Source: Norana najaformis (Eukaryota; Annelida; Clitellata; Crassiclitellata; Hormogastridae). Taken from it: a DNA stretch of 64,000 nucleotides. Shown here one piece after another: positions 23,472 to 43,456 of this stretch. Position 1 is the first letter of the stretch, and every line of letters begins with the position of its first letter. Position numbers and translations under genes: made by a program. The notes under the pieces are model-generated. The model was not told where the DNA came from. It ran no database searches and saw nothing but the letters and a program-made list of their open reading frames with translations. The stretch is from contig OZ029914.1 of the NCBI GenBank assembly GCA_964023275.1, positions 17,072,049-17,136,048 of the forward strand, given 5' to 3'.

Positions 23472-26400
23472 ATGGCAAGTGTTGCAGACACAGTTCAAGT
23501 GCTACTCATGCTGATACAAGTTCAATATGGTTAGTGTTTTAGAATCAGAGCCAGTGTTTGCCATATCATCATCACCAGGTCACAAAAATTAAATTCTTTA
23601 TTTCTGGAAGATATTCGATTAATGGATTAATACTCTACTTCTTCTGTCAATGAACAGTTCTTTAAACAATTCGATAGTTTTCTTTTACGGAATCACTTTC
23701 GCAGTACAAACAGCTACTGCTTAATATGCACTAGTCTTATAAGTCACTAATTCCAGCGTAACAAAACTTGCTATATGTGTTGTTAGTTTTAATTACCGTG
23801 ATTGAACAGTTTAAAAATTGCTGCAACATTGTAATCATTTTCGATCTTAGCAAAATCTGAAATTCGTGTGCCGCCTCGTGACACTGAAGCCGTGGTTGGT
23901 CAGCAGACGTTCCTGAACTGTTCAACGTCAATCCACAACAAAGGAATTCTGTGGTATCATTATCCTGTTGGAGCTCATGAGTCGAATTACATCTACCTTA
24001 TGGGACAGCTTCAACCACCTTACAAAAACAGATTCCAAATGCAAAGACACACTGGAACAGGAGAATTCAATTTGGTGATTCGACCGGTGGAAAGGGGTGA
24101 CGCAGGAAGATATATATGCCAAGACGAAGGAGAACAAGGGCAACACAAGGTCGCGGAATTAATAGTTTTAGGTTAGCTGCATCTGTTCTTGCAATAGACT
24201 GATATTAAGAAACAAGCGACATCTGTGGCGTAGCAAGGGCCGATTTAGAAAACAGTATGTCGTTTGCTCGTTCCATCCTAGGAGTTAAGAATGAGTGAAC
24301 AAACATTGTTTTCAAAAGCTCTTTCCAAAAACTATTTTCTAATCTCTAATACATTATTCTGGGTATTATCTTTTGAAACAACAAGCACTCTTTTTTAATT
24401 TTTATTTTTAATACTAACTCATAATTTATAAAAGCAGAATTTATTTGCATTTATAATAATGAATAGTTTTATTTTGAAAGACGGTGCCAATCGGTGGTGA
24501 AAGATTCACCAAGGCACAAAAAGAGTTGAAAGTAAATACTTTACAAATTCCATGAAGTTTCAAAACTCTTTATATGGATGTATACATTTCTAGTTGACAA
24601 TTGTTTATTTTGCTGTGTTTAGATGCCAATCCAATCTGTATAACAAACATGAAAGAAGACGGAGTCATTGGAAACAACAGCTGCGGTGTTAGGCCAGAAG
24701 AACTTCAGTTGTCGTGTAGCATAAAATACCATGGAAATATTCGACCCATCGTTGAATGGAGGAAGATAGGAGAAGATGACACGATAAGTGAAGGCATCCA
24801 CCAAGAAAGCTCCGCGAGCCACTTAAATTCATTTCTCACGATACCAGGCGACCACATCCAAGACGGTTCTTCCTTCTCCTGCCAGACAATGAGATCTTCC
24901 ACTGAGCAACACAGATGCGTTTCTGATATTGTTAAAATAATATGTAAGTTGGAAATCTAATCTAATGACTTCAAAAGTGCCGAAGTCATAAATGCACAAT
25001 GCATTAATCGATACCGTAGTCAAAATTCGTTATCTTTTTAAGACGCTACGTCACAATCCGATGCGTTAAAGAAAACAGAACTCAGGCTAATTTGAGTAAG
25101 CAAGTTTAAACAGACGAATCTTAAGTGTAGACGTGAATGACAATAAAGAACCAACAGAACACACAGAACTGGGCAGTGAATTTCAAAGCTTTGGACAAGA
25201 CAACGAGAACACCTGAGAGTTCACACTCTCCTTGGGTGATGTAAAGGACTTAAAAGCATCCGCTGATTAATGCAATATTAAATAGCATGAGGGGTTAGTA
25301 AGAAAAAGAATCAGGTCTTCCTTTTAAAGTTTAAATAACATAGATTAACAAATATACGTCTTTGCTTTACGAATTCTTTTTCTTTTCATTTTCAGATGTG
25401 TTTAACACCTTTACGATTACAATGGCAGTCGTGGGTGAAAAGACTACATGTTTGGCGAATAGTAGTCAGCCATGTCTTTATAAATGGATGTGGTCTCAGG
25501 GTGTTAAAGAAGAAATCGCTTCAAGTGATGCCACGATAATGTTTGCAAAGCCAGGTTCATATATTTGTGAAGCTGAGTGCAAGATAAGGAAGAGGACGTG
25601 TTCAGTTGTAGCCAGACTGGCTCAAGTGTCTTCTGTAGCTCAGACTTCTGGTAAGTTCATGTCTTAGTACCGCTGCCAATAAGTTTCAATACCGGAATAA
25701 TCGGTTTTACGTTCTGGCTATTCTTACTAGCTTTCAAAATTTTGACTACAGACGCATACCAGGAACGTGCAGTCGATCATCTGAGTACCACACGATGATA
25801 GTCACTTCAATGACGGGTTTCGGCCAGATATTGGATCTATCCTCGTGTCCAAAATCGTTCTTCTGAGTATAGGTAGTCCTTTAACCCGCAAATGAAGTTC
25901 TAAATTTTCCAAATCAAATTGCCCTCATACATTCTGCTTCCATACTCCTGCATAAAATCAATTACTCTACCGGACTTGATTATGCGAGCAATAATACAAG
26001 CATCATACGTATGATATTAATATTTTAAGCCTGGGGTGTAGTGTATTACTGGTCAGAGAAACTTGAACGGCAGTTAAACAGTTTACAAATTTCGAAATTT
26101 GTAAGTCCTATGACAAACACTACGAGATTGGTAGTCAATCGAACATAAGATAGAACTGTCTTGCAATCGATCTGTCGACGTAAATTGGCCTTTGGGATTG
26201 ATTGTTTGGAAGGATGATAGCGGAGTGCTAGCGTCTTCGCCAGCGTTTTAGGTTCAAGGATTGTGATCAATCAAAGCATAAGAATGAGATAAATAGCAAC
26301 AATGGCCCAATTATGGATACATCAAGGTGAATTTTGTAGACGGAAGAAAGTCAGTTACGTGTGTCACAGTAGTACATTGTGTTACGTGGTAGAGAAGTTC

Positions 26401-29400
26401 GAAAACCCGTCACTTCTGGCCCTTGAGAAGGTTAGACGGTTAGAAATAGGTGAAAACGTATAATTGTTGTTATTGACCAAGGCCAAGAAATTGGTGTTGG
26501 AATGACAAGGCCAATATCTAGTGTTTGATAAAGTGGAAGAGTGTTAGTATAGTGCTGAGAGGCCAGACGGAGAAAAAAGACCTAGATAAGAAGCGGGGGT
26601 ATATAGGTAACAATATCCAGAGCTGAGGAGTAGATAGTTGTTTCGGTGATAACTGTTGTTAAGTGTGGAATGAGGATAAGAAAGGGTATGTGCTAGATCT
26701 TTAAAATAATGTAACACACATAGATGTGAGTTTTAACTCAGATCTTGATGAAGGGCTGAAGCAAGAGTTGATAATGCTGTTGGAAGAGTATAAGAAAACA
26801 TTTTCGAATGTCCCAGAAAAACCGGTTCGGTGGAACATGAGATAAAAGTGATTAAGGAGGAACCGCTGTGGTCAAAGGCATATCTGAAGTAGTCTTACAG
26901 TGTACAACGAGACATCAATACAGAGGACGAGATCATGCTAAAATGCCATCATAAAAGAATCAGAGTGTGCTGCGCCTTAGGTAGTGATCAAGAAATCCAA
27001 TGGTTTGGACGTTGTTTTTTAAACTAGAAGGTGATGTGCTTAATTAGCCAATTGGAAGCCATCTGTACAACAAATATGAGTTTTGCAAAGTATATTCGCC
27101 AATTACAATGTCGAATAAATCATAGAACCCATCCAACCTTTGTTCGTGAATGGCCTTTTTTGATTTCAATGATACATTTGGAGTTTTACACAGATAATAA
27201 GCATAATAAGTAATAATCTATGACTGGTTGTCTGAACTTGTAGAATTACTGCCTTCTACTGCATCCTATATCCGGCCGATCCTAATTGTGGTAACATCAG
27301 TACTGACCGCTTTTGTGACAGGTTTCGTGATGTATGTTGTAATAAATCGGCGATTTAATCCAAGTCATTTCGCAGGTGAGTTTACCTATAATGACTAATT
27401 TATAAAATAATGTTACAAAATACACTATGAACTTTTATCCTGATTTAATACAAAGGACACATGGATAAGCAGCAAAAATTAATGCCAAAGCATTTCTTAA
27501 CTTGGTGATGCATGTTTACTTGACGGAACAGAATAGACTAGTTCACTGGTAATAATAGCATGTTGCATAAGAATCAAACATTTCTTTCTTTCTTAAGGGT
27601 CCATTGAAGAAAAACAGCAACTGCTTCCTCGTTTAGGTAAGTTTAACCAACAATTTTCATTAATATCACTGCCATCATCATTATCGGCATATTTGTGTTA
27701 TTCAACACCTATCCTTTACACAAAAGTAAGCGCTATTCTCGTCATCATCACCTCACCCTATCCTTTACTACTATGTAAGCAGTGAATGTAAGTTTAATTA
27801 CAGGCTACCACGGTATTGCAGCTTAGTGTTAACGGCCACCTGGATTAAGCACAGAGAACAATTTATACCCTCAGTAAATCCGTATCAGAAAATTCCAATG
27901 ATTTTAAGTTTAATACATCTGATTAAATTGTCAAGATCTCGGCCTATAAAAGTACGTACCTATGTATGTATGCATGAATGCATATATGTAAGAATGTGTG
28001 CATGCATCGTGATTATAATCGATATTTCTACAGCGCCCAACGAACCAGTTTATTCACAGGCGTTCAGACAAAACAAAATCAGTAGGCAAGAAAGGTTCGG
28101 TTCCAGGTCAAGATCCAGGCAGGCAGGCAGTCAGACGGCTACGGTGGCTGGTGTTCGGAATTGAATCTGCAGGGTGGATAAGGGAAAGAAGAGGAATCAG
28201 AATAGGATCTGCAGAATAGGAATGCTTTCAGTTTTGAGTGGAAGACCTGCACAGAGATTGCAAGGGATGAAATGATGCATGCATAATTGCATATATGCAT
28301 GCATGCATGTATGTTTGTATGTATGTATGTATGTACTGTATGTATGCATGCATGTATGTATGTATGCATGTATGTATGTACTGTATGTATGCATGTATGT
28401 ATGTATGTATGTATATTTGTATACATAGTATTCCCATAGCACCAGTTTATGAAAATAACCATCCATAAAAATTTTTCAAGGAAAATTTGAGGACCTATAC
28501 CATGCTGGGTGGACATTTACAATATAATTTTAAAGATAGCATAATATTTAAATACCAACCCATGTTTATCGGGTAAACAACAAATATTAATATATGAAAC
28601 TTCGAAGTTAATGGGAATAAACAATAAACTACACAAGACAGAAACAAAATTTACGCGATTTTACTTTACAAACCTTAAGGCTGAGGCTGAGGCTGATGAC
28701 CAGAATGAGCGATTTTGAATGAATATGATTTTAATTATTTTTTTGTCATTGATTTCATTGCCGTACCGTTAGCATTCATTCTTAGAGCGACAACTGCTAG
28801 GCACCATAAAGAAATAGCTGACTGACAATCATATTACAGGACAATAATGGTGAAAAAAGGAAATTAAATTTTTACGATTGGCTGTGAAGTGATTGAATTT
28901 GATTAGTATATATATATATATATAGGTTTAAATTTAAACCTATAAATAGATATTGCATATTGATCAACCGATTTGATGCACATTGCCAAAGGAAAACCCA
29001 TGTCACATTGAAAATATAATGGAGATATTTGCAGCAGATACACGAGAATAGTTTATAAAATAGGTTTTTGTTCATTGAAATTTACTCGGTGTTGTTTTTA
29101 TTCACAGAAATCTACGGATTAACCATGTTAGAAGATGAATTGTACATTTCTCGAATTCACAGCGCAGACATAGAAGTTTATGACGCCATAAAGTTTACGT
29201 TTAAAACACAATGGAGAGTTCTGGATTTGCTAAATCCAATAGATCTAGTTTGTTTTGGCAACCATCTTTGTTTGTTAGATTTTAAAGATTTAGGACAAGA
29301 TTGCGAAATCTTCATGGTAACTGCTTCTGGTGAATTAGTGAATAAGTGGTCAACGGGAAACAATTGGGGCAGTTTGTCCGTCACAAATGATCCACATGTC

Positions 29401-29952
29401 ATTTTAATAGTCTACCCGACTAGCAAGTTGATGGAATATTCCTCAGATGGACAATTATTGCGCCAAATTGATCTAACAGGTGCAGGTATACTAACTCCAG
29501 GGCATGCCATAAAACTGACCAACGGCGAATATGTAGTCTGTAACGGCAGATTTGGCCTTCCATATCACCAAGTATGTATTGTGAAACTCAATGATGAAGA
29601 TAATGAAAGTGTAATTGATATTAGTAAAGAAAATGTAGCAAAAACCTTTGGTCGAGAAAGAGGCTCGTCGTCTATGGAACTGGATGGGCCAGTACGTTTA
29701 GACGTTGGCGCTAATTGTTCCATTTATGTAGCGGACCACAACAACGGCCGCGTTTTGGTGTTAGATTCTGATCTGAATCTAGTAAAGGAACTTGTTTCAG
29801 CTAAGAAGCATAACCTTGGTCGTCCGCGCAGACTGTGTCTCGACGAGGCCAAAGACAGACTACTTGTGAGTGACACTTTTCGAGTCTTAGTCTGTCAGTT
29901 AAGCGAGAATCACATCCAATGGTTTGATATTAACCCAGAAGAAAAAAATTAA
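23472..29952 (+). CDS. Receptor 2: three-Ig transmembrane receptor with intracellular NHL propeller
   Basis: Seven exons give 656 residues: 23472–23529 (signal peptide), 23851–24171 (Ig1), 24623–24943 (Ig2), 25396–25650 (Ig3), 27244–27375 (TM), 27598–27636 (linker) and 29108–29952 (NHL, stop TAA). Every junction is phase 1. The signal peptide contains VQVLLMLIQVQ. Ig1 is V-type with FLNCS, ILWY and DAGRYICQ. Ig2 has LQLSC, VEWRK and SFSCQ. Ig3 has TTCLA, YKWMW and GSYICEAEC plus an extra Cys pair. The TM is about residues 329–351, followed by INRR, a stop-transfer cluster, so the NHL part is cytoplasmic. The 13-residue linker holds EKQQLL, an acidic dileucine endocytosis motif. AATAAA occurs near 30395. 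Introns contain a TTAGA-tailed element, a Ty3/gypsy relic and a GATTAC-tailed LINE. The joining is inferred from splice sites and phase; no transcript is available here. Confidence 0.85.
24955..25040 (-). mobile_element. TTAGA-tailed element inserted beside the Ig2 donor of receptor 2
   Basis: AATCTAATCTAATGACTTC and GCACAATGCATTAATCGA are the family tail read backwards. It lies about a dozen bases after the exon end. The homologous intron of receptor 3 lacks it, so it arrived after the duplication or was lost there. The left and right element limits are approximate. Confidence 0.6.
26720..27025 (+). mobile_element. Degenerate Ty3/gypsy pol fragment in receptor 2 intron 4
   Basis: A broken frame reads as the region preceding and entering a Ty3/gypsy reverse transcriptase: LLEEYKKTFSNVPEK, then VEHEIKVIKEEPL, then a VVIKKSNG-like block at 26980–27010. 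It contains stops and frameshifts and no LTR was found. The sequence from 26276 probably belongs to the same relic. Non-functional. Confidence 0.65.
28011..28275 (-). mobile_element. LINE 3' end, GATTAC-tailed family (copy 6), receptor 2 intron 6
   Basis: GATTATAATCGATATTTC, CTACAGCGCCCAACGAAC, CAAAACAAAATCAGTAGGC and GGAAGACCTGCACAGAG show a reversed copy reaching further 5' into the coding end than the other short copies. Confidence 0.7.
28295..28420. repeat. ATGT/ATGC microsatellite
   Basis: Imperfect tetranucleotide array directly beside the LINE copy. Tyr/His/Thr-rich open frames on the minus strand here are artefacts. Confidence 0.92.
28905..28944. repeat. (TA)n run joined to a perfect 24-bp palindrome
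   Basis: A TATATA tract is followed at 28921–28944 by TATAGGTTTAAA and its exact reverse complement. Confidence 0.85.
29108..29952 (+). CDS. NHL-type beta-propeller exon of receptor 2
   Basis: One exon encodes residues 376–656. Repeats of the NHL type are visible: VRLDVGANCSIYVADHNNGR followed by VLVLDSDLNLVKEL is a near-consensus NHL blade, and PRRLCLDEAKDRLLVSD, AIKLTNGEYVVCNGR and VILIVYPTSKLMEYSSDG are others, with perhaps five or six blades in all. NHL propellers are known from TRIM-NHL proteins, where they bind RNA or protein. Here the domain follows a TM segment instead of a RING/B-box module. The acceptor is TTTATTCACAG. Confidence 0.85.
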
Positions 29953-30470
29953 CATCGGTTTTACACCAGTTGAGTAAAACTGAGAAATGTGGACCAGGTT
30001 ATATTTCTTTTGCAAATTATGAAACAAATTTAAGTACAGCAGACTTCGGTTGTCGTGTATATTTTAAATATGTCCCTTACGATTCGAACTGCTATATTGA
30101 AACTCTGGATCATTATAGAACGAGATATGTATCAATTAGGTCTATGTTATATGGTAATCTCAAATATGTTATATGGTAATTTCGCGTAATTACTTTTAAT
30201 GCCTATTTACATGATTTTATGGCAACTTCATTCTAAATTTTATTTAGCATGAGACCCCATTTAAACTAATCTCGTCTAAAATATTTGCGTTAGTTCTTTC
30301 TTGCTATCAACAACCCTGAATTATGACTTGATTATTATGGACTAATATGTATGCTGTCAGTTGTGATGTGTTTGCCTATTGAACTGTTTCAGCAATAAAC
30401 ATTTTGATCATCACAGTTTTTGCAGTGCACTTCTATGCTTTATTTCATTCATATAATGCTGTATTGCATA

Positions 30471-30612
30471 AACTTCGTCGGCCGCATAGATTGTATCTCG
30501 ACGAGGCCAGAGATAGAGACTTCTTGTGAGCTACTACTTTGGAGTCGTTGTCTGCCAGTTAATTAAACGAGAATCGCAGGCAATTGTTTGATATTAACCC
30601 AGCAAATTAGGT
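30471..30612 (+). pseudogene. NHL 3'-end remnant downstream of receptor 2
   Basis: CGGCCGCATAGATTGTATC, CTCGACGAGGCCAGAGATAG and TTTGATATTAACCCAGC match the last 45 or so codons of the NHL exons (PRRLCLDE..., ...FDINPE), with frameshifts. The following 150 bases match the 3' UTR of receptor 3. It is debris of another NHL exon. The stretch between the receptor 2 stop and this remnant has no counterpart at the end of receptor 3. Confidence 0.8.
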
Positions 30613-32899
30613 TCACTTTCACGTAGTTCACATAAACTGAGAATAAGGACCGCAAAATGCACGAGTATATGATTAACTACTGGCCAAAGAGACACTTTTA
30701 AATTGTAAACATAGATTATTTGGCTTATTTTATTATATTTAAATCTTGACAAGTCATGGAAATCTTATGTAAGTCTATTGTATATTAGATTAATGTAATG
30801 CTACTCATCGGCCTACGCATATACATATAAAATTATGAAACCAGTTTCGTTGTACAAATTATAACATAATTTGGCATGCATCAAACTCTTACAATAAACA
30901 TTTACAATAAACATTTGCAATTACAATAAACATTGCATTAAACTGTGGTCCTTTATGAGATAAATTGTCGTATTAAGACTTTTGGAATACTAAACCTCGC
31001 ATGTGAACCGCTGCGGCCCAGTCCAGAAGCTTTGCCTATGTTGGTTCCACTTGCTGGAATGGTAACCATCGAGAATTGCCACTTGAGCTCCTTTTTCTCC
31101 CCCTCTCAGTGTTCCGCAGGCGCCTGAAGACTCTATTTTTTCACAGTGATTTTACTTTTTCGGGTCGGAAACACCTCTACAAGATTTGTATCAACTGTAT
31201 TATAGAAGCCATTAAATTCGCAGGGAAGTTCTGCTTCTGATACGTTCTGTCTATAATTGGTAGTATCTATTGTACTCGTATATAGATTACTAGTGTCTGG
31301 CAAATTTGTAATGAACTGTATTTTGGAAATGATACCTCGTTAAACAAATACCGTCTTAAATGTTTGCTGTTATGCTTCCTTTATCATCTGCAACCTATCG
31401 TATTGTATGGTATTTCATATTTGTGCTATGTTCTAAACCTTTCACGCCTAAGGTTTGCAACTACATTCGGCAAATTAAACGCAGAATGAAAGCTAGATTT
31501 CAAGTATGCGTCCCAGAGTTACGCTGTGTAAATGCATATCAAGTCTAAAGTCTTAACCTGGTGACTCTTTGCGTTCAGTTTTTCGTCGAATTTTCTCAGA
31601 TTTGAAATAAATTTACAATAATTATTATTGATGTTTACATATTCGAATTACAAATAACATCTTAAGTTTATATGATCGTTAATTACTTTATTAGAATCAT
31701 ATGAGCTAGGCATTTAGCCTAAATCTATGCATAGATGTAGCCCATAACAGTAGTAATTTTCTGATTAATTTTGACTTACAAAATGCTTATACAGTTTCGA
31801 ATATATGCAAGTTTATATTATTAGTTTAAATGTTATACGCACTTAAGGTATTATTTTGTTTTAAAAATCAGTTTTATAGCTATTAAATTCGAACTTTTTA
31901 TTATGTTACAACACTGATTACTGTAAAAAGCACACCTTTCAGAAAGGAAGATAGGGAAGGCCACGCAGCTAAGCCCCGGCCCAAGCTGAACGGAGCCCAT
32001 AGCCTCCGAAGTGATTTTGCAAAAACACAGGTCACATTTTAACGCTGAAATATGGTTCAATGAGAGTGTGACAAAGATACGAAGAAGATCCTTGAAATAA
32101 CGAAAGCCAACAATTAATGTCAAACTATGCCGATGGCTTGAAAAGCCCTCGGAAATGGCTGGCACATGAAAGTAGACTTAGGTCGACAAATGTCCAAATG
32201 ATTAGCAATTACAGCAAACTGACTAAAAGTTTGTCGATACTTTTTGCGGCATGAGCCGACATAAAAGTTGTAATGACCAAAAAATGGGTTGTCAATTTTT
32301 CGTCGCGTTATTAAGTACGGCCTGTAAACTCACAGATAGAGCCGAAAGTAGTTGGGGCCTCTTCGAAATGCCCTACCGCACTGTTCAGCTTTGTGAAAGA
32401 AAGCGCCGCCAGCGGTTTTATGATATTTACCACGTCCTGCTGTTTAATTTTACTCTTATAAAAGTTATATAGTTGTTGCATTGGAGAGTAAAATTTACTG
32501 CTACGTTTTGATCTAACTCGAACTTTGTGTTTTTCAAGTGTTTGCCAGATTTACAGGGATACTGATAGCTGCCACTTCAAATGAACTTTGCACAAGTGGC
32601 TGTTTCTCTTGCCTCTGTAAAACCTAGGCTTTATTTGATAATGAACAGAATCAATGTTTTAAGCAACTTTGAGTAAGCGAACTACATTTATTTTCATAAA
32701 GGTAATTACGCGTACGTATTTTTGAATTGTCACTTCTTAATTTTAGTGAATTTTGGGTCTCTTAGGCCTATATTGTAGCTATCGGTTTCACTTCATTAGA
32801 TTTATATTCGGCAGTTAAGTTTCAACATGTTTTTCAATATGGATTTGGCATACATGTATACGGTTTCATCGAATCAAGCTAGCCGACGTGGCGTATACT

Positions 32900-33230
32900 A
32901 AATCTAATCTAATCTAATCTCATAATCTAATTTAAAGACTTCAATGTTATAATGTCCAATGCATCAGCCGCTTCGAGTGAAAATCGCAATCAAAATCATA
33001 AGCCGCTGAAATGGCCAAATGGAATTCCGATAGGTCAGAGAAACCAGAAGTCAGGTTATGATGTGCACACTGCCAAAGACTGCAAGGGCTCCGAAGGAAA
33101 CGGGTCTGCCTCTAGTCGCTTTCTGACGATGCGGTAAAGAAGGTCTTTAAATAAAATTAAAGTTTGAAATTGACCAATAATTTGATGCCATGGGCATTAT
33201 GATAACAATGATTATGATTAGATTAGAATG
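32900..33230. mobile_element. Two TTAGA-tailed fragments, tails facing outwards
   Basis: Starts with a reversed tail (AATCTAATCTAATCTAATCTC) and ends with a forward tail (GATTATGATTAGATTAGA). CATCAGCCGCTTCGAGTG and TTTGATGCCATGGGCATTATG are the corresponding inner blocks. Confidence 0.55.
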
Positions 33231-33344
33231 TCAATACCATAGTGGCTCAAGAGTCAGGATTTTGCCTAATAGCGTCATTTGCCTCTAGGAGTACAAAGAT
33301 TTAAATTAACAGAAAATTGGGCTTTTGAGATAAAATGACGTACA

Positions 33345-33550
33345 ACACTATTCTATGTTATAATATACTATAATATAATACTATGCTACACTATCGTATA
33401 GTATACTATACTACTGTATATCATACTACATTGCACTAAACTGAACTATACTACACTACACTATCCTATATCATACCATACTACACTACGCTATGCTACA
33501 CTACGCCCTACTATACTATTCCATACTATACCATGCTATACTATACAATA
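33345..33550. repeat. ACTAT pentanucleotide array upstream of receptor 3 (first)
   Basis: Imperfect ACTAT/ACTAC repeats homologous in position to 22540–22760. Confidence 0.9.
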
Positions 33551-33589
33551 CTCTCTTCTGTTGAGGTGTCACAAAGCAGATTTGTCAAA

Positions 33590-34085
33590 ATTGCAAAGGG
33601 TTCAGAACTCACTGGCTACGGCTATTACAGATACTTTTAAATATGACCTAATCACCCGAGTCCTCAAATCATTGCGTTGACTCCCTGTTGAGCAGAGAGG
33701 TAATTTCAAAACTGGTTAATTGCCTGCAAGACAATGCATTCAGGTCAACTGCAGTACCTTCAAATTATGTTTACTTCTCAGACCTATCGTCGCTTTACTA
33801 CGTCTTTTGCCACACTTTGAGTGAACACTGCACTTGGCAGCAGTTTTTTCTCTTGAGGACTCACGTTTCTAAAATGCACTTCCATAATCCATTCGCTGTG
33901 CTGTAACTTTCCATTCTCAATTTAATAGGACGTTTTTGTCTTAATGTGGTTATCGTTTCTCGGCAGTTTTTCTGTCTTATATGACTGACCCTTGAAAATG
34001 ACAGGATTGCAACAATGTTTTGGAGTGCCATATCAAGTCTATTGCCTAGTGTATTATTATATTGACGCTACTGAAGTTCAAAGAT
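33590..34085 (+). mobile_element. LINE 3' fragment, TTAGA-tailed family, duplicate of 22790–23285
   Basis: Same broken reverse-transcriptase C-terminus and 3' end as the copy upstream of receptor 2, with an eroded tail. Confidence 0.7.
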
Positions 34086-34099
34086 TATATTACTTTACG

Positions 34100-34225
34100 A
34101 TAACTATACTATGCTACACTATTCTAAACTATACTATACTACACTATACTATACTATACTATACTATACTATACTATGCTATACTATACTATATTATACT
34201 ATACTATACTATACTATTCTATAAT
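34100..34225. repeat. ACTAT pentanucleotide array upstream of receptor 3 (second)
   Basis: Near-pure (ACTAT)n, more homogeneous than the other arrays, ending about 150 bases before the receptor 3 start codon. Confidence 0.92.
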
Positions 34226-34373
34226 GTATTGTTGATGGTTTATAGAACAATCTGCTAAATTACAATAAATAATGGCACGTTATGCTGCATTGCATGCACA
34301 CTACTAAAATCCTATCATTAGCCTGAACTAACTAAATGAAATTTATTTATAGCTACAGAATAATAAAACCAGC

Positions 34374-37300
34374 ATGGCAAGCGTTAAAGAAACAGTTCAA
34401 GTACTACTCATGATGATACAAGTTCAGTATGGTCAGTGTTTTAGAATCATAGCCTTTCTTTGCTCCATCATCGCCAACTGACTAATTAAATTCTTTGTCT
34501 GTTAAAGATATTCAATAAATAGAGTAATATTGTACTTCTTCTTTCAATGCACAGCTTCGATAATCTACCTCATACGTACTTCTTTTTGGAATCTCTTTCG
34601 CAGTACAAACCATTACGATTTAATATGCACTTACAAGATAAGGCTTCCATCATAACAACACTTGCTGTGTATGTGGTTACTTTTAATTATTTTGTTTAAA
34701 TTAAATTGTTACAATACTGTAATCATTTTCGATCTTAGCAAAATCCGAAATTCGTGTGCCGCCTCTTGACACCGAAGTCGTGGTTGGTCAGCAGACGTTC
34801 CTAAACTGTTCAACGTCAATCCACAACAAAGGAATTCTGTGGTATTATTATCCTGTTGGAGCTCATGAGTCGAATTACATCTACCTTATGGGACAGCTTC
34901 AAACACCATACAAAAATAGATTTCAACTGCAAATGAATAGTGAAACAGGAGAATTCAATTTGGTGATTCGACCGGTGGAAACGGGTGACGCAGGAAGATA
35001 TATATGTCAAGAAGAAGGAGAACAGGGGCAATACAAGATCGCGGAACTAATAGTTTTAGGTTAGCTGCATCTGTTCTTGCAATAGACTGATATTTAGAAA
35101 CAGGCGACATCTGTGGCGTAACAAGGGCCGATTTACTCGTCCATCTTATAAGTTAAGAAAAAGTGAACAAACATTGTTTTCAAAAATTCTTTCCAGAAAC
35201 TATTTTCTAATCTCTAGTACATTACTCTGGGTATTATCTTTTGAAACAACAAGCACTCTTTTTAATTTTAATTTTTAATACTAATTCATAATTTATAAAA
35301 GCAAAATTTATTTGTATTTATAATAATGAATAGTTTTATTTTGAAAGACGGTGCCAATCGGTGGTGAAAGATTGACCAAGGCACAAAAAGAATTGAAAGT
35401 AAATACTTTACAAATTCCATGAAGTTTCAAAACTCTTTATATGGATGTATAAATTTCTAGTTGACAATTGTTTATTTTGCTGTGTTTAGATGCCAATCCA
35501 ATCTGTATATCAAACATGAAAGAAGACGGAGTCATTGGAAACAACAGCTGCGGTGTTAGGCCAGAAGAACTTCAGTTGTCGTGTATCATAAAATACCATG
35601 GAAATATTTCACCCATCGTTGAATGGAGGAAGATAGGAGAAGTTGACACGATAAGTGAAGGAATCCACCAAGAAAGCTCTGCGAGCCACTTAAAATCATT
35701 TCTCACGATACCAGGCGACCACATCCAAGACGGTTCCTCCTTCTCCTGCCAGACAATGAGATCTTCCACTGAGCAATACAACTGTACATCCAACGCTATT
35801 AAAAATATATGTAAGTTTGAGAAATTTCGATTTTTTCAAAATTAAAATAGCATCGATCAGCAATTAGATCCTGTTTCGAATAGCTAGTCCTTCCTTGCAG
35901 GACAAAAGAGTAAATGCGGCTTGCATTAAGAATTCTTATTATTCATTTTCAGATGTGTGTAATTCCTTTACGCATACACAAGCAGTCGTCGGTGAAAATA
36001 CTACATGTTTGGCGAATAGCAGTCAGCCATGTGTTTATAAATGGAAGTTGTCTGAGGGTGATAAAGAAGAAATCGCTTCAAGTGATGCCAGGATAATGTT
36101 TGCAAAGCCAGGTTCATATATTTGTGAAGCTGAGTGCAAGATAAGGAAGAGGACGTGTTCAGTTGTAGCCAGACTGGTTCAAGTGTCTTCTGTAGCTCAG
36201 ACTTCTGGTAAGTTCATGTCTTAGTACCGCTGCCAATAAGTTTCAATACCGGAATAATCAGTTTTGCGTTCTGGCTGTTCTTACTGGCTTTATAAAATGC
36301 TGAGTACAGAAGCATCTCAAACAAAATATAGTCGATCATGTGACTGCCACACTATAAAAGTTATGACAAGGATGGTTTTCGGCCAGCGAACCTTTACAGT
36401 TTTTTGTACCCAGATATTGGATCTCTCCTCAGGTTCATAATCGTTCTCCTGAGGATTTGAAACCACGGATGAAGCCTTATATTTGCCAATTCAAATTGTT
36501 CTCATATATTTTGTCCATCCTTTGATGTAATATCTATTACTTTATTGGATTTGATTGAAGCAGAAGGAAACGTCTCAGTGGAAGTTCCTTTCCAAGTTAG
36601 CTTATTCGCAGAACCATAAGCATGATTTTTTAGTAAATCTGAAAATCGCTTCCTGTTTCTGTCTGCTCTGCAGTTCTTCGATGTTATTCAAGTGTGTGCT
36701 GCAACCTCTTCTTTTTCTGACTTCTTGCACGGTCTTTCTTACACTTTTAGAGACCACGCTGATTTTGATTGCTTTTTTCAAAAACTTGTATTTTAGCGTA
36801 GCCTTACTTCTCATTTTACAATTAAGCCTTATAAAATACGAATGTTTGATTAGTTGTGTAGTTAATTTAGATGTTACTCAATGATAATTGTAAATGCCAG
36901 CATCTGAGGATGCTAGCGTCGTAGAAAATATCAGTATTTAGGTTTTGCTGTTCAGCGAATTGTTCAGCAAAAGATATTTACAAGGATAGTCTAATATTTT
37001 GAACTACTGATATGTGGATCATATCTCTGGAATGCTTTGTCTAATGGGCTAGCTTCTCTACCCACTGTATCCAATTTCGAAACACAGTTGGAGTTGCTGA
37101 CGACTTTACTCTGTTTGACTAACTATTCAAATTAACTGCACCTTTATAAGCTGAAATCGTTGAGGCCACGGCGCCTCTTGTCTAGGTCATAACACAACTG
37201 TTACAGTCTATATCGCTATTGGCAGCGAATCTAGATAACTGAACGAACTTCAAACCAACTCATTAACTCACTGACTAAGTCACTAACTTATTTAACCACT

Positions 37301-40300
37301 GTATCAATGGCATTATAGCACTACATAAGAATGCCATTGTTTACCCTCTTCCATAATCTATATGACTGAGAGTGAGTAAGGGAACACAGAATGGGGCTAT
37401 AACAGTTTACGCTGTCTTCTACATTAGCACTGAATGGGCCCAGCTCAAGACTGAGATTTGGACAATGGTCCAAGACCTTTTTTACCACCTTTATCTCAGG
37501 TGTTGTCAACTTTCTAAGCTCCCGCTTGCGTGGCAAGATTGGTGGTGAAGTTGGTATTTTCATAAATAACAGTAAACAATTTTATATAAGCGCCACTTCT
37601 TCGTAGGCCTTCAGAGCAGATATTCTGGTTTTACAGAAATAATCAACATTATAAAATATGATTGTTTGTGTGACTTTGTGTAAATGATTGTTGCCTTCTG
37701 CAGCATACTATGAATTGGTGAAGACAGTTGTAGCAACATCCATGATTACTTTTGGCGTAACAATTTTCGTGATGGTTGTTCTGCTAACTCGGCGTTTAAA
37801 CAAAAAATATGTCAAAGGTAAGACAATTACTTGTAATAATTTAAAGAATAAGAAGAACCTTGAATGTGACTTGTTCCGCGACTGGTTATCATTGCAATGT
37901 CTATCGCATGTATTGTGAAACATGCGAAAATCTACGCGGATTGCCTACTTCTTGCGCAGCACAGTTGAGGACTGACTTGAGCTTACATGTATGTAGTCAA
38001 AACTGTGACAAGTACCTGATTGTAGACTAACAGTTTTTATAGCTTATTCTGCAATCCGCGTACAGTCCGACGCACGAACTTTCCGTTGCACTGCGTCTAA
38101 ATTCAATAGGTGGCTACTACTCTGGATTTGTTGGATTAACTTTGGAATGTTCGACCTTCAGGTCAAAAGTCAAATAACTAAGTATTGTCCGAAATTTTCG
38201 AGTCAGAACTCTTGATTTTAACTCCTAGCAACACCAATCGCTTACGCACAATTACATTTTAAGAGTGAAATTGTCAATTTTTAAATATGTTCTTAAACAG
38301 CAGCTGTGATTAATGTCAGCCTCTGGTAATCTCTAGTCGTGTAAACAAAGGTTATCATCTAAGTCAAATATTCTTTAAGAATTTCAATATACTGTCTCTA
38401 ACAGCATTGGCGGTCGGGGGCTTCGGTCAGACAAACACTTGAAGAAGTTGACATGCTTCACACGATTGTCCAGTTGGTAAACGCTGAACGCTTTGCGCCC
38501 CTTTAGCTGAAGGTGCTTCAGGCTCTTGAACTTGGCATCCTGCATTTCGCAGATTTCTTCGCTCTTCTGCGCAAGGTGACCTAGTTGTCCCGCCTGTTCT
38601 GTTCTTCTGTTCTCAGCCTTCCTCGTTCCGAGATTCGGCCGCATCATGCACAATGTTCCTCCAGTGTCCTCTGTCTTCCACCAGCCTGAGCATCTCCTCC
38701 ATTGTTAGCCCAGTCCATGCCCTGATGTTGCCCAACCAGTTTATTCTCGGTCTTCCTCTTTTCCGTCCTCCCGGTATTGTGCCCTGTATTATCTCCTTCT
38801 CGATGCATGTTCCCTCCTTCCTCATGATGTGGCCAAAATAGATCAATTTCCTTTTCCTTACTGTCTTCAAAAGATTCCTCTCTACTCCAGCCGCTTCCAG
38901 TACCCATTCATTTGACCGCATTTCCATCCACGATATTTGCATGATCATTCTTAGACATTTCATCTCGAATGCTTCTATCCTCCTCTCTTCCTCCTTCCTC
39001 AAAGTCCAACTCTCACATCCGTACAGTGCCACCGGCCATACTAATGTCATCAAGAGCCTCATCTTTGTTACCAGTGATATGCCATGGCTTTTCCATATTT
39101 TTTTAAGATTTGTAGCCATTGCATATCCCTTTGCAAGTCGTACCCTTATCTCTGCTCCACAATCGTTGTCCCGCCAACCCGAGCTTAATCGGTCCAGCAT
39201 AGAAGCTTTGCAGTGGATGGTTCAGCTATCTGGAATAAGTTGTCTTGTTTATAAAACATTGAACTATGGCCAACCACAATACTGAAAATCAGTTCTCATT
39301 CCCCACACTTACTATTATTCAACTAGATCAGCTGACTGTCTTTCTCTGGTCATGCCTAAGACTAGAACAGTTCTTCTTGAACGAGATTTTCCGGTTGTTA
39401 GGCTTAGATTTTGGAACTCCCTTCTTGTGTCTGTTCGTTCTGCTCAGTCGCTTCTGTCATTTAGTTTTTAATTTGAGACTCACCTTTTAAAATTGCTTAT
39501 CCACCGTAGGCTGGCTCTCTTTGTTATTGAACTGATCTTCTGAATATTAATCAGGTTCAGGCTTGGCTGTGGTGTGCCGTCAGTTTGATGCATTGTGCAT
39601 TATACACCAGTGCCATATAACTTATCAATTAAAAACAACAATTGCACCGTCAGGTCAGCGTTTCAGCCCGCGAGCGCCCACGTGATGAAAGTACGCAAGC
39701 CGACGTCAGAGTTTGCAAGCTCGGTAAAACCTAGTTAATGGCTATTGTAGCACGTTGCGTCCAAATGAAATATTTGTTTTTTAGTGCCAAGTGAAGAACA
39801 TCGACAACAGCTTCCTCGTTTAGGTAAGTTTAACTCACTATTTCATTATTGGCACTGCCATCATCAGTATCTTTATCGCTGACGTGATCGTCATCTTCCA
39901 CATCTGTTATGCAACAGTCACGATAGACGCGTATTGTAAACGAAGGTTTGATGTAACACTGGACAACAAATTTTTACAAAAGTCATGTTACTGAAATGAA
40001 ATTAGTCAGTTCTTATCAATTTGTATGTGCTGAACACGAATATGACAGTGAAAATGCCGAATTGGCTCTAGTTTTTTTGTAATCTGAAATGAAGTAATTT
40101 TATATCGCACAATGCATGCCAATAGTGATACACTTACAGTTAATATTTGTAAAAACCAGGTCATAGACTAGTTCTTAGATTTTTTGCCTGTCTCTTGTAC
40201 AGCTGTTCGGGAGCATCTCTGCGGAGTGTCCAGCAGTAGTCAGCCAACATTGTAGTGGACCATTTTCTCTGGTACCTTTGCTCCATTGTTGCGATATCTT

Positions 40301-43300
40301 GATGAAAACGTTCGCCATGTTCGTCACTAACCATACCACAGTTGTCAGGGAAGAAATCCAGATGGGAATGAAGGAAATGCATCTTCAGAGACATATTGCA
40401 GCGAAATTTCTGGTACTGCTTGAGCATGTCTTCTACTAGTTCCTTGTAGTTTTCTGCCCTAACATTCCCCAGAAAGTCTGTAGACACTAGACGAAAAGCA
40501 TTCCATGCTTGTTTCGCATCACCCTCCAGCAAGTTGTTGAAGCGGTCATCTTTGAAGAGTTCTCTAATCTGAGGACCCACAAAAACTCCCTCTTTAATCT
40601 TTGCTTCGCTGAGTCGAGGGAATTTTTCATGCAGGTATCGGAAAGCTGGCGAAGTGCGGTCCATGGCTTTCACGAAGTTCTTCACCAAACCTAGTTTGAT
40701 GTGAAGGGGTGGTAGTAGGATTTTGTGAGCCTCGACCAGAGCTGGGTGCTGGATATTCTTCTGTCCAACTGCCATGTTTTGTCTGGGAGTCCATTCCTTC
40801 CGCACGTAGTGCAACTCTCTTGCTCGGCTATCCCACTCACACAAGAAACACATATATTTTGTATATCCTTGCTGCAGTCCCATTAAAATGGCAACTACCT
40901 TCAAATCACCACACAGGTGCCATTTGTACCTGTTATAGTCAATGGAATGCAGTAGCTGTTTTAGGTTATCGTATGTCTCTTTCATGTGGACAGCATGCGC
41001 TAATGGAATAGATGGAAGACGGTTTCCATTGTGCAAAAGCACAGCCTTAAGACTCAGTGTTGAAGAGTCTACAAAGAGTCTCCATTCTTGTGGGTCATGA
41101 GTGATCTGTAAGGCATTCATGAGGTCGTCAATATTGGAACAGAATACCAGATTACCTTCCTTCATAAAGAAAGGTTCCAACTGCTGATGGCGCTTTCTAT
41201 ATGAAGTAATTGTGACATCTTCTTCTAGAAGATTCCATTGTTGGAGTCTTGATCCTAGCAATTCTGCCTTGTTTTTGGATAAGTCCAAATCACGAACAAG
41301 GTCATTTAGTTCTTCCTGTGTTATTCTGTGTGGGGTTGATGATGCACCACAGTGAAAATCGGGATCACTGCACGCTGACGGACGAGGAGAAGAACATGTC
41401 GGCTCACCCTTGTCCTCATCAGATGAATCAAGGAAAATATATTCTGCTGGAGGTTCTGGAATAGGAAGTCCATCACCATGTGGAACTGGTCTCAATGCTG
41501 ACGGAATGTTTGGGTAGACTATTGTCGACTTCTTTTGCTTCGTTATTCCACCGGAAAGAGGAGGAACCAAGCAGAAGTAACAGTCATCTACGTGGTTGCT
41601 TTGCTCTCTCCACACCATGGGAACTGCAAACGGCATTGATGGTCTTTTGCCATTCAACCACTGTGAAAGCTGTGTTGTACATGTAGCACAGCATATATGC
41701 GGGGCCCATGGCTTGTCTTGGTCACCAACCTTGCATTCGAAGTAAGCATGATATGCCTTCTTGACTTGATAAGTGATACTTTTCTTCTGGTTGGCAAATG
41801 TCACTTCCCCACAAATGTAACAAAAGTTGTCCACAGTATTTACGCACTTCCGAGGCATTACTGTTCTGTATTGTATCTAAATGGATAAAGTAATAATAGT
41901 TTTATAAAACAGTAACTTAAACTGTCTCGCACAAAGTCTGTAATATTGTAAATGCTCAACCGTTCCGACTCGCTTTATATAGTACACTGCTGACGTCATC
42001 TTACGTCAGCAGCCGACTGGCTGTAGTTTTACATTGCATCAGAAAATGACGTAATCAACTGTGCATGATGTGTCCATGATGGGATTATGCAATGAGGTGG
42101 AATATTACATCATTCTAGACTTATTTAGGATATTGTCGCAGTCCTACTGCATAAATTTACATGGTGAAACATAAAAAATGAACTATATGAAATATTTTCA
42201 AAACGAGAGCCAATAAAAAATTTTTATGGTTATATTCGTGTTCAGCACACCAAGATGCTACACATTAGGGCCTTTTCCAGTCAGTAACGATTTCTATGTT
42301 GTATATTATAATATAACGAACAGTTTTGAGGCGCTTAAAAGAAACACCTATCAAATGCATCTAGCAATCACTTTACTGTTGCGCCAAAAGAAATTGTTAG
42401 GTTGGCTTTTAGAAAATGTGAATAAATTGGTTTCTTCAGACTTCAAAATTATTTCGAATGACAGATAATAGTAAATTAATCATTAGTAACAATATTCTAA
42501 TTATAATTCTAGTTAAGGTGAAAAACGCTAATGCAGATATTTGCGGCAAAGATGTGCAAAGTTAAGTCCATGATAAACTGTTGAACAGAGTTTCATTTGG
42601 TGTTTTTTCGTTCGCAGAAATCTATGGATTCGCTGTTTTACGCGATGAGTTCTTCATTTCTCGACTTCACAAATCAGACATAGAAGTTTATGACACCATA
42701 AAATTCGCGTATAAAAAAGAAATGAGGTTTCAGAATTTAATAAACCCAACAATTATCGTTAGCTGTGGAAACAATCTTTGCTTATTTGATTTTAAAGATT
42801 TTGGTCAAGATTGTGAAATCTTCAGAGTAACTACTTCTGGTTTATTACTGAATAAATGGTCAACGGGAAACAATTGGGGCACTCTGTCCTCCACAAGTGA
42901 TTCCCGTGTCATTTTAATAGTTTACCCGACTAGCGAGTTGATTGAATATTCCTCAGATGGGGAGTTATTGCGCCAAATTGTACTAACAGGTGCAGGTATA
43001 CTAAATCCATGGCATTCCATAAAACTAGCCAGTGGTGAGTATGTACTCTGTCACGGTAGATATGGCCTTCCATATCACAAAGTATGTATTGTGAGACTCA
43101 ACGATGAAGATGATGAAGGTATAATCAATATTAATAGCAAAAATGTAGTAAAATCCTTTGGTGGAGAAAGAGGCTCGTCGTCTGTGGAAATGGATGTTCC
43201 AATCCATTTAGCAGTTAGCGCTAATGGTTCCATTTATGTAGCGGACCACCATAACGGCCGCATTTTGGTGTTAAATTCTGATCTGACTCTAGTAAAGGAA

Positions 43301-43456
43301 CTAGTCTCAGCTGAGCAGCATGGCCTTCGTCGTCCGCGCAGACTATGTCTCGATGAGGTCAAAGGCAGTCTGCTTGTAGGCGACTACTTTCGAGTCTTAG
43401 TCTGTCAGTTAAACAAGGATCACAGGCAGTGGTTTGATATTAACCCAGAAAAGTAG
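34374..43456 (+). CDS. Receptor 3: three-Ig transmembrane receptor with intracellular NHL propeller
   Basis: Tandem paralogue of receptor 2, also seven exons, 648 residues: 34374–34431 (signal peptide), 34739–35059 (Ig1), 35490–35810 (Ig2), 35953–36207 (Ig3), 37704–37817 (TM), 39785–39823 (linker) and 42618–43456 (NHL, stop TAG). All junctions are phase 1 and exon lengths equal those of receptor 2 except the TM and NHL exons. Ig exons are close to receptor 2 (about 87–89% of residues by eye), while TM and NHL differ much more. The TM acceptor is a canonical CTTCTGCAG. The linker reads EHRQQL, so the dileucine of receptor 2 is not conserved. Introns hold an RTE-like LINE fragment, another LINE fragment and a complete TIR transposon. 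AATAAA occurs near 43515. Confidence 0.85.
38613..39200 (-). mobile_element. RTE-like LINE ORF2 C-terminal fragment in receptor 3 intron 5
   Basis: A 195-residue frame with LVWPVALYGCESWTLRK, a RIEAFEMKCLRM block, LIYFGHIMRK and GGRKRGRPR, the signature of the region after the reverse-transcriptase domain in RTE/craniofacial-development-protein-2-like elements. The 5' end is truncated, so no endonuclease or catalytic RT motif is present. Confidence 0.85.
39260..39545 (+). mobile_element. LINE 3' fragment in receptor 3 intron 5
   Basis: A broken frame with LRFWNSLL and LSFSFNLRLTF-like blocks fits the C-terminal end of a CR1/L2-type reverse transcriptase. It abuts the RTE-like fragment in the opposite orientation. 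Confidence 0.5.
40026..42249 (-). mobile_element. Complete TIR DNA transposon in receptor 3 intron 6
   Basis: 2,224 bp bounded by imperfect inverted repeats. The left end TGTGCTGAACACGAATATG (40026) matches the complement of the right end (…CGTGTTCAGCACA to 42249) with one mismatch in 21, and an inner TTGGCTCT lies exactly 36 bases in from both ends. It carries one intact 565-codon ORF antisense to the host gene. No clear target-site duplication was found. The homologous intron of receptor 2 lacks it, so it inserted after the duplication. Confidence 0.85.
40161..41858 (-). CDS. Transposon-encoded protein, 565 aa, probable transposase
   Basis: An uninterrupted frame inside the TIR element. 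The N-terminus has a Cys/His zinc-binding pattern: CVNTVDNFCYIC, then HAYFECKVGDQD, then WAPHICCATC, with a further DDCYFC near residue 93. A central acidic linker follows (DSSDEDKGEP), then a region with FVDSSTLSLKAVLLHNGNR and LCGDLKVVAILMGLQ, where acidic residues D and E on strands could form an RNase-H-like core, and an HGERFHQD block near the C-terminus. I recall very similar multi-copy proteins annotated as uncharacterised in cnidarian and arthropod genomes, but I cannot assign a superfamily name. An intact frame suggests recent activity or domestication; the TIRs favour activity. Confidence 0.8.
   Translation of the reverse strand: MPRKCVNTVDNFCYICGEVTFANQKKSITYQVKKAYHAYFECKVGDQDKPWAPHICCATCTTQLSQWLNGKRPSMPFAVPMVWREQSNHVDDCYFCLVPPLSGGITKQKKSTIVYPNIPSALRPVPHGDGLPIPEPPAEYIFLDSSDEDKGEPTCSSPRPSACSDPDFHCGASSTPHRITQEELNDLVRDLDLSKNKAELLGSRLQQWNLLEEDVTITSYRKRHQQLEPFFMKEGNLVFCSNIDDLMNALQITHDPQEWRLFVDSSTLSLKAVLLHNGNRLPSIPLAHAVHMKETYDNLKQLLHSIDYNRYKWHLCGDLKVVAILMGLQQGYTKYMCFLCEWDSRARELHYVRKEWTPRQNMAVGQKNIQHPALVEAHKILLPPLHIKLGLVKNFVKAMDRTSPAFRYLHEKFPRLSEAKIKEGVFVGPQIRELFKDDRFNNLLEGDAKQAWNAFRLVSTDFLGNVRAENYKELVEDMLKQYQKFRCNMSLKMHFLHSHLDFFPDNCGMVSDEHGERFHQDIATMEQRYQRKWSTTMLADYCWTLRRDAPEQLYKRQAKNLRTSL
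42618..43456 (+). CDS. NHL-type beta-propeller exon of receptor 3
   Basis: Encodes residues 370–648. Blades match receptor 2, with IYVADHHNGRILVLNSD and PRRLCLDEVKGSLLVGD, and the whole exon is uninterrupted. By eye about 70–75% of residues agree with receptor 2, and the hydrophobic and glycine framework is kept, which argues for selection on a functional fold. The acceptor is TTCGTTCGCAG. Confidence 0.85.

Follow-up and report, generated by a model that had tools for sequence, protein, structure and literature searches.

Two neighbouring genes of the annelid Norana najaformis, here called A and B, encode predicted type I receptors in which immunoglobulin (Ig)-type domains and a transmembrane (TM) helix are followed by an NHL propeller. 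They lie in a stretch of 64,000 nucleotides (nt), the window, covering bases 17,072,049–17,136,048 of contig C2 (OZ029914.1) in an assembly of 608 Mb and 17 contigs. The Ig–TM–NHL architecture is almost certainly genuine. Because related genes on the same chromosome show the same combination, it is, judging from the sequences, a real gene family. Our preferred account, held with moderate confidence, is that A and B are type I receptors of a large tandem Ig family that gained a TRIM-type NHL tail by exon shuffling and use it for docking. The pairing of Ig–TM with NHL is carried by four modelled loci: A, B, a distant gene D and a locus E.

Gene structure and protein domains

Each gene has seven exons, encoding the signal peptide (SP), three Ig-type domains (Ig1, Ig2 and Ig3), the TM helix, a linker and the NHL propeller. 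They join in one continuous frame of 656 amino acids (aa) in A and 648 aa in B, free of internal stops. Every join is in phase 1, and all six introns of A, likewise those of B, start with GT and end with AG. An earlier note on this DNA had proposed this layout. The exon positions that it gave were verified, with AG acceptors, GT donors and phase-1 joins, as was the preservation of the seven-part order and single frame in both copies; its NHL exon of 840 bases needed correction, to 845 nt for A and 839 nt for B. The exons are as follows (expectation values are given as E).

23472..23529, + strand: gene A exon 1, signal peptide; 58 nt, ends in phase 1 with a GT donor
23851..24171, + strand: gene A exon 2, Ig1 (V-set); Pfam V-set E 2.4e-9
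24623..24943, + strand: gene A exon 3, Ig2; Pfam Ig_3 E 7e-4, below cut-off
25396..25650, + strand: gene A exon 4, Ig3-like; without Pfam match, joined frame and cysteine alignment
27244..27375, + strand: gene A exon 5, TM helix, then NRRF; joined frame and hydropathy
27598..27636, + strand: gene A exon 6, linker of 39 nt; joined frame
29108..29952, + strand: gene A exon 7, NHL propeller and stop; Pfam, AlphaFold2 and Foldseek
34374..34431, + strand: gene B exon 1, signal peptide; joined frame
34739..35059, + strand: gene B exon 2, Ig1 (V-set); Pfam
35490..35810, + strand: gene B exon 3, Ig2; Pfam E 3e-3, below cut-off
35953..36207, + strand: gene B exon 4, Ig3-like; without Pfam match
37704..37817, + strand: gene B exon 5, TM helix, then LTRRLNKK; joined frame and hydropathy
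39785..39823, + strand: gene B exon 6, linker of 39 nt, 30 of them as in A
42618..43456, + strand: gene B exon 7, NHL propeller and stop; Pfam and joined frame

The ectodomain is anchored by Ig1, a V-set domain above the Pfam cut-off in A and B (E 2e-9). In D, Ig1 passes the cut-offs for Ig_3, I-set and ig, so that all three genes have the extracellular Ig domain of an Ig-superfamily receptor. Ig2 gives sub-threshold Pfam Ig matches in A and B and none in D, and Ig3 is without a Pfam match in all three; the Ig3 cysteines of A align with Ig3 of gene D and of P0001, a database protein described below. The signal-peptide exon is short and hydrophobic in A and B and clearer in D, in P0001 and in the upstream neighbour gene C, as judged by reading and a hydropathy scan. 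The best hydropathy windows score 2.23 (A), 2.42 (B), 2.18 (P0001) and 2.12 (C). Basic residues come a few positions after the main hydrophobic segment of A, B and P0001, as in a protein with a single TM helix, and the propeller of A and B is therefore predicted to be cytoplasmic.

In each propeller a single NHL repeat scores above the Pfam cut-off of 20 bits (23.6 and 30.7), and the 36 matches listed by a genome-wide Pfam NHL search do not include A and B. The best match of the NHL exon in a PDB sequence search is the NHL region of Drosophila Thin (E 2e-7). AlphaFold2 models of the NHL exon of A contain 24 strands when built with two relatives (predicted local distance difference test, pLDDT, 68; predicted template modelling score, pTM, 0.71) and 25 strands when built from 17 sequences (pLDDT 92.1, pTM 0.90). 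In both of two Foldseek searches against the PDB, places 1–16 all go to NHL domains of TRIM2, TRIM3, TRIM71, Lin41 and Thin. Identity to the Foldseek-matched NHL domains of Brat, Lin41 and TRIM71 is 14–18%. Strand count and fold matches together suggest six blades in the modelled propeller of A. Thus, the earlier identification of the last exon as a propeller is borne out by the confidence of the larger model and by its 16 top matches.

By Pfam and fold, A and B share the C-terminal NHL propeller of the TRIM-NHL family. RING and B-box are absent from their joined exons, and four TRIM-exon queries returned nothing better than E 0.42 across the window; at 1e-5 the same queries match 8 of 18 other loci, including the four from which they were taken.

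Evidence for a single gene

The linker exon and both its splice sites are conserved between A and B; the runner-up among ungapped 39-nt offsets in the TM-to-NHL interval reaches 20 identities. There is no in-frame ATG between the upstream stop and the NHL acceptor in either copy, and the first methionine inside the NHL exon is residue 6 in A and residue 35 in B. Hence, A and B have no common start codon at the beginning of the propeller.

The same order recurs in gene D, which was reached by the genome NHL search. Its NHL exon, at C2:11.147 Mb and 6 Mb from A and B, sits behind a signal exon, three Ig exons and a TM exon, giving a model of 623 aa in six exons, all joined in phase 1. Across 634 aligned columns this model is 37% identical to A (E 4e-132). 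The TM exon comes from a hydropathy and splice-site scan of the Ig3–NHL interval, which returned a single place with two alternative donors; the signal exon is the better of two candidates from a similar scan. Locus E, picked for its Ig2–NHL distance from the cluster that holds D, shows the order Ig2, Ig3, TM and NHL, its Ig1 and signal exons falling beyond the stretch covered. Its TM exon is the scan's sole candidate and aligns to that of D (E 0.002). Between D and E, the ratio of non-synonymous to synonymous substitution rates (dN/dS) is 0.34 in Ig2, 0.44 in Ig3 and 0.70 in NHL, with bootstrap ranges extending to 1.16 (Ig3) and 1.04 (NHL).

P0001, the one protein from a full-length database search, holds all the parts in a single chain of 1021 aa, ordered SP–Ig–Ig–Ig–TM–NHL–NHL (Ig2, Ig3 and the second NHL assigned via alignment), and is 28% identical to A over 94% of its length (E 9e-76). 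Its contig of 3,451 nt exceeds the coding length by <400 nt, and the genes of the window have introns between all these parts; P0001 is thus most easily understood as a spliced transcript. A profile search listed just P0002, with three Ig domains and no NHL. Collectively, the conserved linker, the lack of a shared start and the recurrence of the order in D, E and P0001 bear out the earlier judgement that the fusion is unlikely to be an annotation accident, and on these grounds the NHL exon was rejected as a separate gene.

A family on one chromosome

Genome searches with single exons give lower bounds, and other contigs may hold further copies. For the NHL exon of A, each of the 138 candidates scored (from 705 at first look) matches and lies on C2, which gives at least 138 matches; those listed are 39–47% identical, apart from A and B themselves, and 130 of the 138 are stop-free. 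All 150 scored candidates for its Ig2 exon (387 at first look) match, at least 146 of them on C2 and the others listed on C8 (two), C1 (one) and C17 (one); 148 of the 150 are stop-free. The NHL exon of D likewise has at least 138 matches, all on C2, two of which are halves of one exon, and the A- and D-based NHL lists combined cover at least 156 places. Ig2 and NHL exons are concentrated on this one chromosome, at 0.24–18.3 Mb. The tandem pair of the earlier note is real, in that A and B adjoin and have the same layout; the two are not isolated and belong to a large family on C2. The Ig2 copies at 0.7–3.2 Mb mostly have no listed NHL exon and may bear other tails.

The distance between Ig2 and NHL exons was compared with shifted positions. 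For D, 53 Ig2 matches of ≥60% identity lie on C2, D's own included (56 at this identity, minus three on C8 and C1); this set excludes the short matches at C2:11242366, 11464294 and 12326625, the last of which sits between a counted Ig2 and its NHL exon, and retains the shortened match at 12535115. The matches listed place 43 of these D-type Ig2 exons and 29 NHL exons in the interval 10.9–12.95 Mb, where 22 Ig2 are followed by an NHL exon at no more than 25 kb 3′, ahead of the next Ig2. Of the 53, 17 have an NHL exon at up to 15 kb on the 3′ side, versus a shifted mean of 10.4 (17 is reached in 25 of 1000 shifts), and eight have one on the 5′ side. At 25 kb the figures are 23 and 18 (shifted mean 16.3; 23 is reached in 42 of 1000 shifts), within 10 kb 10 and one (141 of 1000) and within 8 kb five and one, with no excess (shifted mean 5.6; 676 of 1000). 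The A-based NHL list taken alone gives 13 of 53 versus a shifted mean of 10.4 (maximum 18 in 500 shifts), which is no enrichment. In the A-based Ig2 list, 17 of the 146 are followed by an NHL exon at a 3′ distance of up to 15 kb (shifted mean 8.4, maximum 14 in 500 shifts); nine have one that near on the 5′ side, and none on the opposite strand.

Several observations weigh against the preferred account. The nearness of Ig2 and NHL exons is weakly above chance and alone is no proof of pairing. The density of listed NHL matches peaks at 7–10 Mb of C2 (60 of 138), an interval with none of the 146 listed Ig2 matches. In the ∼1.4-kb upstream flanks of 28 NHL loci no Ig match was found, at a range beyond which the Ig3 of A would fall; the same flanks gave no TRIM match and, in the 14 scanned, no TM candidate. 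For L053, a locus of the 7–10 Mb block, the 9.5 kb upstream contain no candidate for Ig, TM or RING. The architecture of A and B is read from genomic exons; the source label of P0001 does not mention RNA, and it is taken for a transcript by its length. In A, a weaker additional hydrophobic window (1.73) occurs at residue 229, and the dileucine-like motif of its linker, shared with P0001, is missing from B. Finally, a tree of 18 propellers places those of P0001 away from A and B (support 97/96), so that the architecture must be ancient or have arisen repeatedly.

Origin of the propeller and divergence of A and B

Other loci carry NHL exons in another setting. In L012, L013 and L016 a RING–B-box exon, identified via Pfam, is joined to an NHL exon by a phase-1 junction (read by eye), and L009–L011 resemble TRIM-NHL loci judging from their open reading frames (ORFs). 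The notion that every NHL match is a receptor is contradicted by these TRIM loci and by L053. There, a 215-aa ORF rich in coiled-coil-like sequence (L053:6679–7323) lies ∼2 kb upstream of the NHL exon that lacks Ig and RING, possibly a further architecture of coiled coil plus NHL.

Since the NHL exons of TRIM-NHL genes and receptors have a common phase-1 acceptor, exon shuffling is the simplest origin: a TRIM-NHL gene probably supplied its terminal NHL exon, in phase 1, which came to lie behind the phase-1 TM exon of an Ig receptor. A likely source of the propeller can be named because the nearest solved folds are TRIM-NHL and the genome contains TRIM-NHL genes with the same boundary; we infer the direction of transfer, from TRIM-NHL to Ig receptor.

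A and B are a tandem duplicate, alignable in pieces across 11–12 kb that take in the exons, some of the introns and flanking sequence on the upstream and 3′ sides. Identity is 69% in the NHL exon, 86–89% in the Ig exons and 38% in the TM exon (39 aligned codons). The strong divergence of the propeller that the earlier note had remarked on thus holds relative to the Ig exons, the most diverged part being the TM exon. Synonymous divergence (dS) is 0.07–0.17 in the Ig exons versus 0.29 in the NHL exon, which is under constraint between the two copies (dN/dS 0.59, bootstrap 0.42–0.89). Intron identity is 74% in intron 1, 94% in intron 2 (24172–24622 versus 35060–35489) and 46–55% in introns 3–6. 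Because intron 2 stands out in this way, the uneven divergence fits later gene conversion over the ectodomain, at Ig1–Ig2. Behind gene A, the A/B alignment reveals a further element:

30467..30888, + strand: degenerate end of a second NHL exon and 3′ flank, with stops

Given this remnant and the two tandem propellers of P0001, a double-propeller ancestor is possible.

Upstream neighbour and other elements

A relative of A and B lies directly upstream, on the same strand.

12995..20198, + strand: gene C, relative of A and B; ectodomain BLASTP versus A, E 4e-11
12995–13034, + strand: gene C, SP; exon reading
13572–13898, + strand: gene C, Ig exon; exon reading
14510–14866, + strand: gene C, Ig exon with a GC donor; exon reading
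15898–16173, + strand: gene C, Ig exon; exon reading
17387–17500, + strand: gene C, TM; hydropathy
19882–20198, + strand: gene C, tail with five YxxI/L/V motifs instead of NHL; motif reading

The tail motifs of C are YDEI, YIEI, YYNL, YMAL and YDNV. By their count, not by classic spacing of the immunoreceptor tyrosine-based activation motif (ITAM), they make C alone among these genes a candidate for a tail of the ITAM type or its inhibitory counterpart (ITIM). Thus, related ectodomains occur with two kinds of tail, NHL and tyrosine, inside ∼30 kb.

About 7.5 kb before the window, an ORF on the minus strand (L021:2129–2497) matches Amidase_2 (E 2e-14) and looks like a peptidoglycan recognition protein-like innate immune gene near the receptor genes; genes of this type are not known from sponges and cnidarians. 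Intron 6 of B contains a 571-aa ORF without Pfam match (40161–41876, minus strand), probably a mobile element; ORFs that resemble it by eye occur near gene D (L020:9062–9901 and L014:9473–9700). In intron 5 of B, an ORF on the minus strand (38613–39221) has a DUF6451 match below cut-off, and presumably resembles the end of a LINE-type reverse transcriptase.

Putative function

The mechanism that we tentatively propose draws on the role of the NHL propeller in TRIM proteins, and on the fact that the family is large and spread in tandem. The signal peptide and three Ig-type exons would form an outward-facing ectodomain, and one helix with a basic stop-transfer stretch would place a TRIM-type NHL propeller in the cytoplasm. 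An outside ligand or a matching receptor would cluster the ectodomains, and the clustered propellers would become a multivalent docking platform at the membrane for partners of the TRIM-NHL propellers of this animal. Docked proteins would be gathered or sequestered, perhaps beside TRIM E3 ligases; relatives would bear alternative tails, gene C with its tyrosine motifs being an example. The setting is likely microbe or self/non-self recognition; we infer an outside role here, adhesion not being set apart from immune or self/non-self recognition. Of the coupling between an outside event and an inside propeller that the earlier note envisaged, the evidence supports a predicted type I receptor with Ig outside and an NHL propeller in the cytoplasm, and lends no support to an RNA-binding tail.

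A rather unlikely alternative is that the tail serves trafficking or adhesion anchoring, as an adaptor to cytoskeleton or endocytosis, rather than immune-type signalling. Propellers are general protein-docking platforms, and the linkers of A and P0001 contain an acidic dileucine-like motif; it is absent, however, from B and from the modelled sequence of D, so that a conserved dileucine sorting motif was discarded for want of it in B, and family size and tandem spread would rather resemble recognition receptors.

An RNA-binding cytoplasmic propeller of the Brat/Lin41 kind, with receptor engagement freeing or capturing mRNAs, is improbable. The fold is that of the Brat, Lin41 and TRIM71 NHL domains, some of which were solved with RNA, but their sequence identity to the propeller is low (14–18%, as above) and its net charge lends no support, being −13 in A (isoelectric point, pI, 5.0) and −4 in B (pI 6.2), values for the whole domain and not for an RNA-binding face.

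That an Ig–TM receptor is followed by an unrelated NHL gene, with an accidental match of phase, is most improbable: TRIM-NHL and other NHL genes do share the chromosome, Ig2-to-NHL nearness is weak, 129 of the 146 listed Ig2 lack a listed NHL exon in the 15 kb behind them and translation of the NHL exon of A could begin at its residue 6, but B lacks that start, neither exon has an upstream in-frame ATG, the linker is kept with both splice sites, D and E repeat the order, P0001 unites all parts in one protein and no RING exon was found in the window.

The preferred docking account has an extension, which we regard as unlikely: surface Ig receptors (dozens of Ig–TM–NHL proteins among them) and cytosolic TRIM-NHL-type proteins may form a complex on the scale of the chromosome with one exchangeable propeller module, through which receptors and intracellular ligases would read the same partners. 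If so, Ig engagement would recruit or withdraw substrates of the co-expanded TRIM-NHL family.

Relation to known receptors and significance

Known cytoplasmic modules of Ig receptors include kinase, TIR and ITAM/ITIM. The Alr allorecognition receptors of Hydractinia form a large tandem family of Ig-type type I receptors and, at the level of layout, resemble the family of A and B in this; to our knowledge they have no NHL tail. TRIM-NHL proteins (TRIM2, TRIM3, TRIM71/Lin41 and Thin/TRIM32) are like A and B in propeller, fold and phase-1 NHL boundary, but A and B have an Ig ectodomain, a signal peptide and a TM helix in place of RING and B-box. Teneurins also carry NHL in a membrane protein. There it is extracellular, whereas the NHL of A and B is C-terminal of the TM helix and predicted cytoplasmic; TEN_NHL stays below cut-off (E 0.003 in A, 0.015 in B), and the NHL exon shows no YD-repeat family.

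Two further comparisons, at the level of layout, are with other invertebrate receptors. Oyster CgIgIT2 has five Ig domains, a TM helix and an ITAM (PMC11999971); it shares the Ig–TM layout, and its tail recalls the five YxxI/L/V motifs of neighbour C, whereas in A, B, D and E an NHL propeller takes the place of the tyrosine tail. Sponge TLR-like receptors have Ig outside and TIR inside (PMC8242945), and are thus similar in combining Ig with an intracellular protein-interaction module, which is TIR there and NHL in A and B. According to a figure legend of that paper, the domains in its receptor models include IG and NHL, so that an Ig–NHL model may be present there. In searches of the PMC literature aimed at this architecture (a scope that leaves most subscription papers and all preprints outside), no Ig–TM–NHL receptor appeared among the titles and starts of abstracts listed.

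A TRIM-type NHL tail would tie surface recognition to a domain that elsewhere chooses the substrates of ubiquitin ligases or RNAs. Many copies of such receptors, together with TRIM-NHL genes of the same exon boundary in one genome, would show phase-1 exon shuffling at work in the making of receptor tails.

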